Shown piece by piece: positions 9,401 through 11,925 of a stretch of DNA of 42,027 nucleotides; position 1 is the first letter of the stretch, and every line of letters starts with the position of its first letter. The DNA is from Prevotella sp. GTDB lineage: Bacteria > Bacteroidota > Bacteroidia > Bacteroidales > Bacteroidaceae. The DNA lies in the NCBI GenBank assembly GCA_017556145.1, contig JAFZCU010000105.1:1-42027 (forward strand). Direction: 5' to 3'. The position numbers and the translations under genes were made by a program. The notes under the pieces are model-generated. The model was not told where the DNA came from. It was given only the letters and a program-made list of their open reading frames with translations, and searched no databases.

Positions 9401-10058
9401 CCTCCTGCAGATCATCCGTCGCAGCGAGGTAGTCACCCGTCAACTTCTCTGGTTGCAAGGCACCGCCATAGCCGTAGATCTTCACCTTCGAGGGATTGCT
9501 GAAACCTGCTTTTTTCACCAGCGCATCGCTCAGATGGTAGATGCCACTTTCAGGAATACTGATCTTCGCCCAGCTACCCTCCCTCAGCACCGAATGGTCC
9601 GAATACCTTTCACCACTGCCAGCCCGCCTCCTGACTCCTGTCTCCTGACTCCTGACTCCTAATTTAAAGCTCACCAGTTTCTGATATTTCCCATCGCGAA
9701 ACACGAGTGGAACAAACGAAACTTCGAGTATGCCCTGCTTGCGCGAAACGCTGATGCTCTGCGTGATTTCGGGCAGTGGGTTCAGGGGTTTGCCGCTAAT
9801 AGCCTGATAACGCGCTATCTCAGCTTTCGTCATCTCCTCAAACTCAGGGTATTCAATGCTCACGGCATAGGTGGAATCGGCATAGTTGCGACCTAAGGTT
9901 TTCTGCCAGGAATAGACCGGCAACAAGGAATCAATCCTGACCTCATCAGCGGTCAAGTCGACAAAATCCTGTGCCCCCACATTCAAGAGACAGCACAAGA
10001 GCAATACGCTCAGTATCCAAATCTTGCGAATATTCACAATATAATAACGTATGCGCAC
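6492..10058 (-). CDS. porU: Type IX secretion system sortase PorU (C25 gingipain-like)
   Basis: A 1188-residue PorU, the surface sortase that cleaves the C-terminal domain of T9SS cargo and attaches the protein to A-LPS. A hydrophobic signal ends near NVGAQD. The catalytic C25 domain occupies roughly residues 430-800, with His690 (YSGHGAAYS) and Cys723 (TASCD) as the dyad, followed by the usual GGAIAFFGTTRT. The C-terminus holds Ig-like strands and a CTD-like tail (MTGVYIYRI ending in KKMIITGNK), as known for PorU. The start is a GTG at 10058; a second GTG at 10037 gives a better signal peptide and may be the real start. Codons near residues 133-144 contain five heptanucleotide repeats (9628-9662) encoding an Arg-rich stretch that looks inserted. 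Confidence 0.95.
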   Translation of the reverse strand: MRIRYYIVNIRKIWILSVLLLCCLLNVGAQDFVDLTADEVRIDSLLPVYSWQKTLGRNYADSTYAVSIEYPEFEEMTKAEIARYQAISGKPLNPLPEITQSISVSRKQGILEVSFVPLVFRDGKYQKLVSFKLGVRSQETGVRRRAGSGERYSDHSVLREGSWAKISIPESGIYHLSDALVKKAGFSNPSKVKIYGYGGALQPEKLTGDYLAATDDLQEVPTVTIGGRRLFYGVGPVTWASKDALTRTRNPYSDIGCYFLTESDEEPLAVDSAAFAAAYYPSNNDYHSLYEVDDFAWYHGGRNLYDRTLYKMNTPQSYTLNCNDTQGTLTVVLSYDGNFGAEVAVNDSVVDELSVSVSLDSYTEAAARTWTYRLNNLKEGDNKVTITQTRGNNLRLDYLALTSDTPAPMPSLSKTAFAEPSFVYRIMNQDHHADSAVDMVIIIPTTQKWLSQAERIKQLHEQRDGLTVRIVPADELYNEFSSGTSDATAYRRYMKMLYDRAQTDEEMPRYLLLFGDGAYDNRMRTAEWSSCNPDDFLLCFESENSFSHVYCYVSDDFYCLLDDEEQIEEGSRLYLGKPDVAVGRFSARTLEEAKVLVDKTISYANNEQAGAWQNTICMMGDDGNNNSHMATADRVANLVLNTYPGYNVQKIYWDAYTRTTTSTGNSFPDVTRLIKQQMADGALVMNYSGHGAAYSISHEMVLKTPDFAETTSLRLPLWITASCDIMPFDSQEDNIGETAMNNQKGGAIAFFGTTRTVYANYNEAMNLTFMKYVLGTDGQGHPMPIGEAVRRAKCDLVDQGRDTSPNKLQYTLLGDPALALATPQMGITIDRIGGQTVSSGESIRLAAGSVIEVSGHITGDQARAESFTGVVTATIRDAEETITCRLNNTTSEGADTAFVYQDRTKVLYHGSDSVRNGQFSFTFAVPKDISYTEGSGLMTLYAVNSSKSSEAHGLCDHFVLNGSSALANDSIGPSIYCYLNSSSFTNGGRVNATPYFVAELYDDSGINASGSSIGHDLELVIDGDMLKTYNLNNYFAYDFGDYRSGQVSFSIPELSEGKHTLMFRAWDIMNNSSTTELSFEVVKGEPGNITIDCKRHPGSNLATFYITHDRVGTQLDVQLDLYDASGRQLWRHQESGVSSGNVYTMDWNLSISGGRPLMTGVYIYRISVSSDGGSKVSQAKKMIITGNK
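9628..9662 (-). repeat. Heptanucleotide tandem repeat inside porU
   Basis: Five consecutive 7-mers on the plus strand: CTCCTGA, CTCCTGT, CTCCTGA, CTCCTGA, CTCCTAA. They encode the segment LGVRSQETGVRR in PorU. Thirty-five bases keep the current frame; one unit more or less would shift it. Confidence 0.92.
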
Positions 10059-10206: not shown

Positions 10207-10260
10207 GAATAGTTCTCGATGGTGGCGAGGATAGTCCTCGTTAAAGATAGTAGCAATACC

Positions 10261-10368
10261 CACCCCAATGCTTGGGACATCGATAAACGCAAGGAAAGCA
10301 CAGGGTTGGGTGTTTTGTTAAGACTCAACCAGACTCCTAACCAAACACTCCACCCAACACCTACCCTT
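10261..10368. repeat. Left terminal inverted repeat of the VapE element
   Basis: About 108 bases that match the reverse complement of 11796-11904. The outer tip CACCCCAATGCTTGG (10261-10275) corresponds to CACCAGATTGCTTGG (12 of 15). The inner 67 bases (10302-10368) match at about 75 percent in my hand alignment. The inner part is itself a G-rich to C-rich imperfect hairpin (arms 10302-10314 and 10356-10368). Tip-to-arm spacing is nearly the same on both sides (41 and 40 bases). Confidence 0.7.
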
Positions 10369-10399
10369 CGCTTTATCAGTCATCTTTTTCATTACGCTT

Positions 10400-10494
10400 C
10401 TCGAAAAGTGTTAAAAAACAAACTTGTTTGGCAAAAAATGGGATAAAACTTGCAAACCGCAATTTTATTTTGTATCTTTGCGCTCGAAAAGTGT
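10400..10494 (+). promoter_or_regulatory. VapE-gene promoter flanked by a 12-bp direct repeat
   Basis: A Bacteroidetes promoter is visible: TTG at 10450-10452, 20 bases, then TATCTTTG at 10473-10480. The 12-mer CTCGAAAAGTGT occurs at 10400-10411 and again at 10483-10494, on either side of this promoter; the second copy starts about at the expected transcription start. This arrangement could be an operator pair. Confidence 0.65.
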
Positions 10495-10582
10495 GATGCT
10501 CAGCATTGCACCTCGAAAGGCATGACGCTGTGAGAGACACTTACAAGCCAATCTAGCCTAACCACTAAAAATTCTTTTTCCT

Positions 10583-11791
10583 ATGAGTAAGGAACTTACC
10601 ATTCGTGGTGAAGCTCTTGCAGCTTCACGTGAGGGAACGCTTGCAGTAGAGCAATTCCTCAAAGACAATTACCTCTTCCGCTTCAATGAACTGAGCGGGA
10701 AGGTAGAGTTTGTAACCCTGCCGATTGTCGACAAGCCCATCTGGCGTGTGCTCACTCCGAAGGCGCTCAACTCGATCATCATCCGAGCCAAGCGTGAGCA
10801 GATCTACGAGAAGGGCAGTCCCAAGACGGACATCGTCGAGCTGGTGCAGTCGGACGAGGTCGAGACCTTCAATCCCATTGGCGACTACCTGGAACATCTG
10901 CCTCAGTGGGATGGCCAGAACCATGTGGCCCGTCTCTTCGGACGCCTGCCTGGCGTGAGCTCAGAACAGTTGGATTTTCTCTCTGTCTGGCTTCGCTCAA
11001 CCGTCGCCCACTGGCTTCAGATGGACACGCTTCATGGTAATGAGTGCGTGCCTACGCTGATTGGCGCTCAAGGCTGTGGCAAGACCACTTTCGTGGCCCG
11101 ACTGCTGCCACCAGAGCTTCGTGTGTACTTCCTGGACCATCTGAACCTGTCGAACAAATTTGATAAGGAGATGGCCTTGACGAACAATCTGATTGTCAAC
11201 CTCGACGAGTTGGATGCCATCCGTCCCTCTCAGCATGCAGCTCTGAAGCAGACGCTCTCGAAGAGTAAGGTGAACGGACGCCCGATTTATGGCGCCTCGC
11301 AGGATGACCGTCCTCGCTATGCCTCGTTCGTAGCGACGACCAATAATCCCCATCCGTTGTCGGATGCCACGGGTAGCCGTCGCTACATCTGTCTGACAAT
11401 TCCTGAAGGACAGTATATCGACAACACGGGAGAGATTGACTATCAGCAGCTCTATGCCCAAGTGCTTCATGAAATTCGTGAACTGAAGTCGCCCTACTGG
11501 TTCAATAATGAGCAAGTGGCGCGTATTCAGGAGCTGAACCTCAACTACATGGAGCAGAAGGACATAGCTGAGGTAATTGAGGCCTGTATCCGCAAACCCA
11601 AGGAGGGTGAGCAGGGCATCCGGATGAAGAGCGGTGAGATTGTGAAGTTGATCCGACGCGAGTATCCATCAATCAAGGACAACCACAGCACGAAGATTCA
11701 TTTAGGAATGGCGATGAAGGAACTCGGCTTCGAAGGCAAAACACATGGCAACCAGACCTATTACAAAGTGATTCCACTCAAGGCAGCCTGA
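10583..11791 (+). CDS. VapE/VirE-family P-loop ATPase with DUF3874-like C-terminus
   Basis: A 402-residue protein resembling the virulence-associated E (VapE) ATPases, SF3-helicase-like proteins found in phage satellites and integrative elements. The N-terminal 100 residues have no clear assignment. Walker A is GAQGCGKTT at residues 161-169; Walker B is LIVNLDELD with Asp208-Glu209; the sensor region reads FVATTNNPHPLSDATGSRRY. The last 80 residues, ending in QTYYKVIPLKAA, form a small domain that I associate with DUF3874. Residues LNLNYMEQKDIAEVIEACIRK closely match a decayed frame at 23087-23209. The gene has its own promoter, no coding partners, and lies between inverted repeats. A replication or DNA-unwinding role for a small mobile element is inferred, not shown. 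Confidence 0.8.
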   Translation: MSKELTIRGEALAASREGTLAVEQFLKDNYLFRFNELSGKVEFVTLPIVDKPIWRVLTPKALNSIIIRAKREQIYEKGSPKTDIVELVQSDEVETFNPIGDYLEHLPQWDGQNHVARLFGRLPGVSSEQLDFLSVWLRSTVAHWLQMDTLHGNECVPTLIGAQGCGKTTFVARLLPPELRVYFLDHLNLSNKFDKEMALTNNLIVNLDELDAIRPSQHAALKQTLSKSKVNGRPIYGASQDDRPRYASFVATTNNPHPLSDATGSRRYICLTIPEGQYIDNTGEIDYQQLYAQVLHEIRELKSPYWFNNEQVARIQELNLNYMEQKDIAEVIEACIRKPKEGEQGIRMKSGEIVKLIRREYPSIKDNHSTKIHLGMAMKELGFEGKTHGNQTYYKVIPLKAA

Positions 11792-11795
11792 GCTT

Positions 11796-11904
11796 AAGGG
11801 GTGGGTGTCTGGTGGAGTGATTGGGTGAGAGTTGGGGTGAGTGTTCAAGCAACACCCACCCCTTCGCTCTCTTAGTATTTAAAGGTATTCCAAGCAATCT
11901 GGTG
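11796..11904. repeat. Right terminal inverted repeat of the VapE element, with G-rich hairpin
   Basis: AAGGGGTGGGTGT (11796-11808) and ACACCCACCCCTT (11852-11864) are perfect 13-base complements starting four bases after the vapE stop, so the stem may also terminate transcription. Between them lie further GGGTGAG-type runs. Beyond comes AAAGGTATTCC and the tip CCAAGCAATCTGGTG (11890-11904). The whole stretch is the inverted counterpart of 10261-10368. Confidence 0.75.
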
Positions 11905-11925
11905 GAGATTAGCATAGTGCGTCTC

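Follow-up and report, generated by a model that had tools for sequence, protein, structure and literature searches.

At 10261-11904, the stretch of Prevotella sp. DNA analysed here (42,027 nucleotides, in the following called the window) carries a single gene for a VapE-type ATPase between two long inverted repeats. The original prediction regarded this arrangement as a candidate mobile unit, which raises the question whether the unit moves, and which protein would move it. On balance, we consider it probable that 10261-11904 is a self-contained one-gene mobile element, the helicase of which binds the ends of the element and unwinds them, in trans as well, and in this way serves as the mobility protein. 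The features of the locus, including the short sequence words that make up its ends, are the following:

10261-10368, plus strand: left end, with an outer word, an inverted word at about 10303-10314 and a word row at about 10322-10366; similarity with a copy elsewhere starts at 10264.
10322-10366, plus strand: inner word row, iteron-like, with words that are degenerate in the window copy (by reading ACTCAACC, ACTCCTAACC, ACACTCCACCC and ACACCTACCC) and a period of about 11-12 bp.
10473-10480, plus strand: promoter-like TATCTTTG, a candidate that we take to resemble the Bacteroidetes promoter core.
10583-11791, plus strand: vapE, 402 amino acids, a VapE-type AAA+ ATPase and predicted iteron-binding self-loading helicase.
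10889-11551, plus strand: VapE-like domain PF05272 (residues 103-323).
11561-11743, plus strand: DUF3874-like C-terminal region (residues 327-387), the putative reader of the words.
11796-11904, minus strand: right end, read inward from 11904, with words at 11835-11842, 11823-11830 and 11799-11806 and an inverted word at 11854-11861; similarity with a copy elsewhere stops at 11902.

A repeat search of the window places the inverted arms at 10255-10366 and 11799-11910 (112 nt, 71% complementary). Gapped alignment of 10251-10380 with the reverse complement of 11786-11915 reaches a score of 96, as compared to at most 55 in 1000 dinucleotide-preserving shuffles, which confirms the predicted pair of repeats of about 108 bp around the gene; the same upstream/downstream alignment applied to 14 other genes of the window gave scores of 38 at most. 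A hairpin had been proposed for each repeat. The right end bears this out: it has a 12-bp stem (GGGGTGGGTGTT/AACACTCACCCC) that includes one G-T pair, and it folds better than any of 200 shuffles (z -2.5). The left end folds more weakly (z -1.85; 8 of 200 shuffles fold equally well). A stretch similar to TTTGTA(T/C)CTTTGC lies 5' of vapE in many copies of the family. Outside the unit, short tandem repeats of the CTCCTGACTCCTG type are found by reading at 9626-9660 of the window, inside the frame of a C25 peptidase (PorU-like).

The gene was originally assigned to a VapE/DUF3874 type. The first part of this assignment is well founded (PF05272, 120.6 bits against a curated cut-off of 25); the score for DUF3874 (PF12990), a Pfam entry without assigned function, is 27.4 bits (E 4e-6) and stays below the cut-off of 28.3, for which reason we speak of a DUF3874-like region only. 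Residues 83-278 match the structure 7pds_A with an E-value of 4.4e-10; this entry is titled "Similar to D. nodosus vapE" and presumably represents a SaPI Rep protein. The unit contains two further frames of at least 80 amino acids (99 and 172 aa, both antisense), neither of which matched a Pfam family; vapE is the sole frame of this size in 10261-11904 that does. In agreement with the original prediction, no transposase was found in the 402-aa protein (Pfam, PHROGs, NCBIfam) or in the antisense frames (Pfam), and no nuclease, transposase or integrase domain was recognised in the unit. In particular, the window protein gave no Pfam match to a Y1 transposase at E <= 0.001 and contains no primase domain according to Pfam, and the integrase, packaging or interference genes that mark phage satellites (PICI/SaPI) were not found in 10261-11904 (Pfam). 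There is no tRNA in the window, and no Rfam family reaches its gathering score there. A reading of the unit as an anti-phage defence system was rejected, since PADLOC gave no match at E <= 0.01.

Inverted ends are present around homologues elsewhere as well. Our locus set comprises 111 best-scoring matches (L003, L010-L118 and the window copy), taken from species representatives, many of which are draft metagenome assemblies. For the 104 loci with sufficiently long flanks, alignment of the upstream with the reverse-complemented downstream sequence gave a median score of 115, with shuffles not exceeding 57. Controls in which the flanks of different loci were mispaired had a median of 44, a 95th percentile of 80 and a maximum of 183, the latter because related copies have words in common. 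Seven loci score only 34-49; some copies therefore exist without intact ends.

The ends of most copies consist of repeats of one word of 8-12 bp, which is common to both and arranged in a fixed geometry. Going inward, two words 7-8 bp apart are followed by a gap of 66-68 bp to the next word, with an inverted copy shortly before it, and from there on by steps of 11-12 bp. Among loci with a word score of at least 38, the right ends yielded 289 spacings (154 of 11-12 bp, 65 of 66-68 bp and 36 of 7-8 bp) and the left ends 293 (170 of 11-12 bp, 38 of 66-67 bp and 24 of 7-8 bp). The words themselves vary among copies (e.g. CACCTACC, CATATAAC, CTCCCGTC and ACTCACCC). A common word scoring at least 40 was detected in 65 of 108 loci versus 14 of 214 mispaired controls; at a score of at least 30, these numbers are 85 of 108 and 47 of 214. 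In the window copy the words have drifted. Its word score of 26 is close to the median of mispaired controls (24), although its end alignment lies far above shuffles. The automatic word search found two ACTCACCC copies, at 10258 and 10323 (one mismatch allowed), and the direct-repeat row just 3' of vapE, with its words at 11799-11842, is degenerate. Because of this degeneracy, the window copy is outside the correlation tests and the automatic target-duplication test described below.

Many of the spacers between words contain a palindromic core near CCTTTGTACAAAGG, which can be aligned in 72 of 109 right ends and 63 of 108 left ends; one sub-group (e.g. L062) appears by reading to be devoid of it. 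Such a core, lying outside the words and common to many copies, could be the site at which an unrelated transposase or recombinase acts in trans, with VapE being responsible for replication or regulation only. That no nuclease was recognised in the unit would be in line with this idea. However, the window copy has only a degenerate form of this core, and an enzyme reading the core would need no words. We return to this explanation below.

The behaviour of related copies at different sites supports a mobile unit. The window copy and L010 reside at unrelated sites, are 84% identical in the main match, and are similar from 10264 to 11902, which agrees with the original limits to within three bases. 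L226 and L037 are 89.7% identical over 1632 bp between unrelated flanks; this is a cleaner comparison than that of L226 with L047 (95.5% over 1651 bp, flanks unrelated), since L047 lies at a contig end and its right limit is uninformative. L078 and L080 (89.9%) are alike only from tip to tip, and the similarity between L181 and L184, which belong to one genome, likewise parts at the tips. The terminal inverted repeats coincide with the edges of the unit, as they do in insertion sequences, except in the class that bears a DUF6078 gene. Nor is the gene fixed at the window site: among 30 loci fetched on the SDH side, vapE is present in the window's own only, and 29 relatives are without it. On its left side L226 borders on a small helix-turn-helix gene (PF01381; HigA-like by reading), with the tip lying directly 3' of the stop codon. 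The same gene end is followed by other DNA in 19 other loci, and vapE was found in 0 of the 20 loci fetched.

These comparisons also bear on a more conservative explanation, according to which a family of resident helicase genes uses the inverted ends as operators or as sites for the control of chromosomal replication, and the likeness between sites stems from ancient duplication and homologous recombination instead of transposition. A protein that binds on both sides of its own gene could well be autoregulated, clear target duplications are missing (see below), and some copies are common to different species together with their flanks (e.g. L055/L064 and L105/L114). Nevertheless, copies of about 90-95% identity with unrelated flanks and similarity that stops at the tips (L078/L080, L226/L037, L181/L184) argue against it, and many short gene-less units per genome would be hard to explain. 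We therefore regard this explanation as improbable. On the evidence of sequence, the existence of a real element family with word-coded ends appears almost certain.

The limits are less sharp in part of the family, where similarity passes the tips: on the right it runs as far as a DUF6078 stop codon, and on the left it continues through palindrome arrays. A DUF6078 gene lies beside or inside the vapE unit in 49 of 111 loci (e.g. L062, L037 and L033), always on the same strand: in 44 loci downstream, just outside the right end, and in five upstream, with at least L027 and L033 having it inside the left end. Hence, the description as a single-gene unit is correct for the window copy and does not extend to every member. 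In eight genomes, 15 of 18 DUF6078 matches adjoin a VapE match by coordinates, including matches to long cousins of VapE, which suggests that DUF6078 is a partner of VapE genes; no mention of DUF6078 was found in the literature searched. L037 has such a gene next to its right end and L226 has none, and therefore the end-bounded unit can occur without DUF6078.

Immediately beyond one end of vapE units, and likewise of several gene-less ones, there are arrays of short palindromes (TTCCCACGCTGGGAA, GGACTGCCAGTCC, AGTCGGTAACTGA and others). They occupy the left flanks of many loci (e.g. L069, L072, L106, L111 and L040), and their type varies by genome. The left end region of one vapE unit, in Prevotella communis E15-14 (L196, 288-2798), contains an IS66 element (transposase PF03050).

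With respect to the insertion sites, flank matches of 55 vapE units (out of 58 with automatic tips, the window copy not being among them) are at the null level for target-site duplication, in a set in which some automatic tips sit on the wrong word as judged by eye. For 28 gene-less units the mean longest flank match was 2.96, compared with 2.52 in shuffled pairs, and no clear duplication was seen. The original prediction called for a comparison of occupied and empty sites. An empty site with both flanks joined was not detected for the window flanks in 199 genomes, for seven further junctions in 10 genomes, for L226 in 398 genomes, or for nine junctions of gene-less units of genome G094 in genomes G178 and G166. 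The closest cases are one-sided. Two of the nine sites are occupied in both G094 and G178 (L346, L348). At L347 the right flank is present in G178 and the unit is absent; at L345 the right flank starts 13 bp outside the tip and the unit is elsewhere; at L343 the two flanks share a contig and are separated by about 1.6 kb of other DNA. The unit is altered at L344, and L341, L342 and L349 gave repeats only. In G166, none of the nine junctions had a match. A preference for gene ends is not clear either, with 35 of 74 nearest genes turning their 3' end to the tip.

The original prediction had proposed to look for co-variation of ends and ATPase. Such co-variation exists, specifically with the C-terminus. 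Word similarity correlates with identity at 63 C-terminal positions (partial r 0.30 given the identity of the ATPase core, 85 loci), and 300 permutations did not exceed 0.12; with 57 representatives of less than 88% identity, partial r was again 0.30 and 500 permutations remained at or below 0.19. For the core given the C-terminus, partial r was only 0.03-0.04. The signal per column is diffuse: eight of the 25 top columns fall into residues 338-402, which contain 62 of the 301 columns tested, and the best column is position 390.

A natural swap is found in genome G265, an assembly of two contigs. The N-terminus and core of L183 match those of L181 (94.3%, 1270 bp) and L184 (97.5%, 731 bp). The last approximately 240 coding bases of L183 are unlike those of L181 and L184, as are, judged by reading, its words on either side; L181 and L184 agree with each other in both respects. 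A comparable pair from different genomes is L103 and L104, with values of 0.91 for the core and 0.44 for the C-terminus and with different words. As far as sequence comparison goes, the word is thus associated across the family with the C-terminal, DUF3874-like region and not with the ATPase core, and it seems likely that the C-terminus reads the word. G265 also contains broken vapE copies (L184, L185), of which one has an internal deletion of about 246 bp with matching ends, and the other is a C-terminal fragment that adjoins DUF6078.

Additional information comes from units without vapE. A comparison of 13 right ends with eight genomes gave 4 matches in G000, 41 in G265, 35 in G035, 23 in G166, 7 in G217, 48 in G094, 45 in G150 and 7 in G067. 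In G265, G035, G166, G094 and G150, many of the matches listed are inverted pairs that are too close together to contain vapE. Paired ends without vapE in five of the eight genomes lend further support to the mobile unit that had been proposed. No such pairs are among the matches listed for G000 (1 of 4 matches), G217 (6 of 7) and G067 (2 of 7), and no further copy of the window copy's own end is present in its draft genome, which is 83% complete. In all matches listed, the end came from the same genome, from the other member of the pair G035 and G166, or, for G067, from the G150 copy.

From four genomes, 40 places were fetched; 28 with clear paired ends were analysed and 12, mostly single ends, were omitted. 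Of the 28 units, the 19 from G035, G166 and G150 measure 208-322 bp, and the nine from G094 measure 253-879 bp; their inverted-repeat scores are 89-214 (without a shuffle control of their own). When compared with 111 vapE right ends, 16 of the 28 have their best match in their own genome, six in the other genome of the G035/G166 pair, and six in L031. In all of the last six, the resident G150 copy L025 comes second; L031 and L025 have right-flank DNA in common. As the units were found through their similarity to resident ends, this ranking does not represent an unbiased sample. The nine units of G094 are divided between two resident copies with different words, five matching L054 and four L043, and one of them (L349) combines, as judged by reading, an end of one word type with an end of the other.

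The multiplication of gene-less ends that bear the word of a resident copy suggests that VapE acts in trans. It also weighs against the unrelated transposase or recombinase introduced above, which would have to produce units bearing resident vapE words and splitting, in G094, into five and four according to the word of L054 or L043. We consider mobilization by such an enzyme rather unlikely, although more probable than the other alternatives.

The distribution of the family is narrow. A protein search of 398 genomes of the genus gave matches at E <= 1e-60 in 182, many of which hold several copies; this threshold probably admits longer cousins as well. A profile of 77 sequences found no match at E <= 1e-100 in 294 other genomes from the order, and within the genomes sampled the element family is confined to the genus Prevotella. 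Among named genome contigs there are 353 relatives. The 80 retained, of which 51 are loci already in our set, are titled Prevotella, Prevotellaceae, Bacteroidaceae or Bacteroidales, with several titles naming ruminant sources. Among them are the isolates Prevotella sp. tf2-5, P6B1 and tc2-28, as well as Prevotella communis E15-14, for which a complete genome exists.

An origin from phages or plasmids was considered and rejected: one scan of viral contigs revealed no encoded relative, and phage and plasmid cousins are distant, with at most 36.2% identity among the matches listed, which cover 15 of 16 records from phages and 15 of 17 from plasmids. This result is relevant to the assumption that the locus descends from something larger, a phage satellite or an integrative element, of which the replication gene alone is left. 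VirE/VapE ATPases are described as frequent in integrated elements (PMC5862659), and longer cousins as well as cousins on plasmids and phages do exist, the longer ones in the same genomes as relatives of the window VapE, and those on plasmids being annotated as BT4734/BF3469. Yet the inverted ends recur across 104 testable loci, and neither the viral contigs nor the distant phage and plasmid cousins provide a source; we regard a remnant as highly improbable.

Inverted flanks are also seen in some long cousins with frames of 693-701 amino acids (L179, L008, L169, L174 and L175; scores 60-114, with 114 for L179 and 71 for L008), while 12 of 17 tested cousins have flank scores of 54 or less. The layout with inverted ends may thus extend beyond the family. 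Three of these loci (L169, L174 and L175) belong, together with L173, to a repeat of several kb (about 5 kb, approximately 95% identical) that is present at four positions of the single-contig genome G024, in each case with a 693-aa VapE cousin. This repeat proved to be of no use for fixing tips.

Published work on related helicases indicates how a unit of this kind might function. The C-terminal domain of SaPI Rep reads iterons located directly 3' of its own gene, and Cch2 is a 3'-to-5' helicase that requires its iteron (PMC7581432). VirE/VapE ATPases are predicted helicases of mobile elements, and the proteins containing them also carry winged-helix domains, possibly for origin recognition; BT4734 belongs to the AEP primase family (PMC5862659). 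On this analogy, one would expect VapE to bind the words and its loading to take place at either end.

We hypothesize that VapE resembles the SaPI Rep proteins in being a self-loading helicase, and that its C-terminal domain binds the word row at each end, where steps of 11-12 bp put successive words on approximately one face of the helix. The ATPase would be loaded at the word rows and unwind the ends. Unwinding, in turn, would drive copying of the unit, or in trans of any DNA between two matching ends, and the copies would join new intergenic sites without target duplication. Cutting and joining of strands might be performed by replication or repair enzymes of the host, or conceivably by an unrecognised activity of the protein itself. 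VapE being the mobility protein is the reading that we favour with reasonable, not high, confidence, and a supply of the cutting activity by the host is put forward tentatively. Equally tentative is a more general principle: a replication-initiator helicase may serve as mobility protein by using its C-terminal domain to recognize, at either end, a word private to the element, may mobilize any DNA between such ends in trans, and may co-diversify with its word into several non-interfering families per genome, with no need of a transposase-type nuclease of its own.

If VapE alone moves the units, DNA would be transposed with a helicase as the only protein encoded by the element, and the question becomes which host enzyme cuts. 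We know of no mobile element with such a helicase as its sole gene, and our literature searches found no description of such elements. They would represent a new kind of element, provided that no hidden nuclease or partner transposase exists; if one is found, they would be a variant of non-autonomous elements. The elements explain the inverted repeats that are dispersed between genes in five Prevotella genomes, and the natural pairs of word and C-terminus offer a ready series of DNA-recognition variants of the DUF3874-like region.

In comparison with known systems, the closest by protein would be the SaPI-type Rep proteins, and the closest by layout, to our knowledge, the REPtrons. SaPI Rep and the Cch/Cch2 proteins of SCC elements are similar in that the window protein is related in sequence to 7pds (which we take to be SaPI Rep) and in that iterons lie directly 3' of the helicase gene in both cases. 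They differ in that the family described here has inverted iteron rows on both sides which bound the unit, that the window unit is without integrase, primase and packaging gene, and that the words of the family diversify between copies. BT4734-type proteins of Bacteroidales, which combine an AEP primase with a VirE/VapE helicase, belong to the same ATPase family, and some have inverted flanks (L179, L008); in contrast, the window protein is without a primase domain by Pfam, and most of the cousins tested show the low flank scores given above. Insertion sequences and MITEs share the size of about 1.6 kb, the terminal inverted repeats and the short non-autonomous derivatives. Here, however, there is no transposase and no clear target duplication, and the ends carry element-specific words instead of a family-wide end sequence. 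REPtrons, i.e. RAYT genes with REP and BIME sequences, consist of one gene between inverted palindromic repeats, and paired inverted copies of these repeats are dispersed over the host genome; the RAYT protein is a Y1 (HUH) transposase. The Prevotella units likewise have one gene and inverted ends, with scattered paired ends in G150, G035, G166, G094 and G265, a trait that is absent among the matches listed for G000, G217 and G067 and for the window's own end. Unlike RAYTs, the Prevotella protein is an AAA+ ATPase without a Y1 match, and its ends are about 110 bp long and carry iteron rows.
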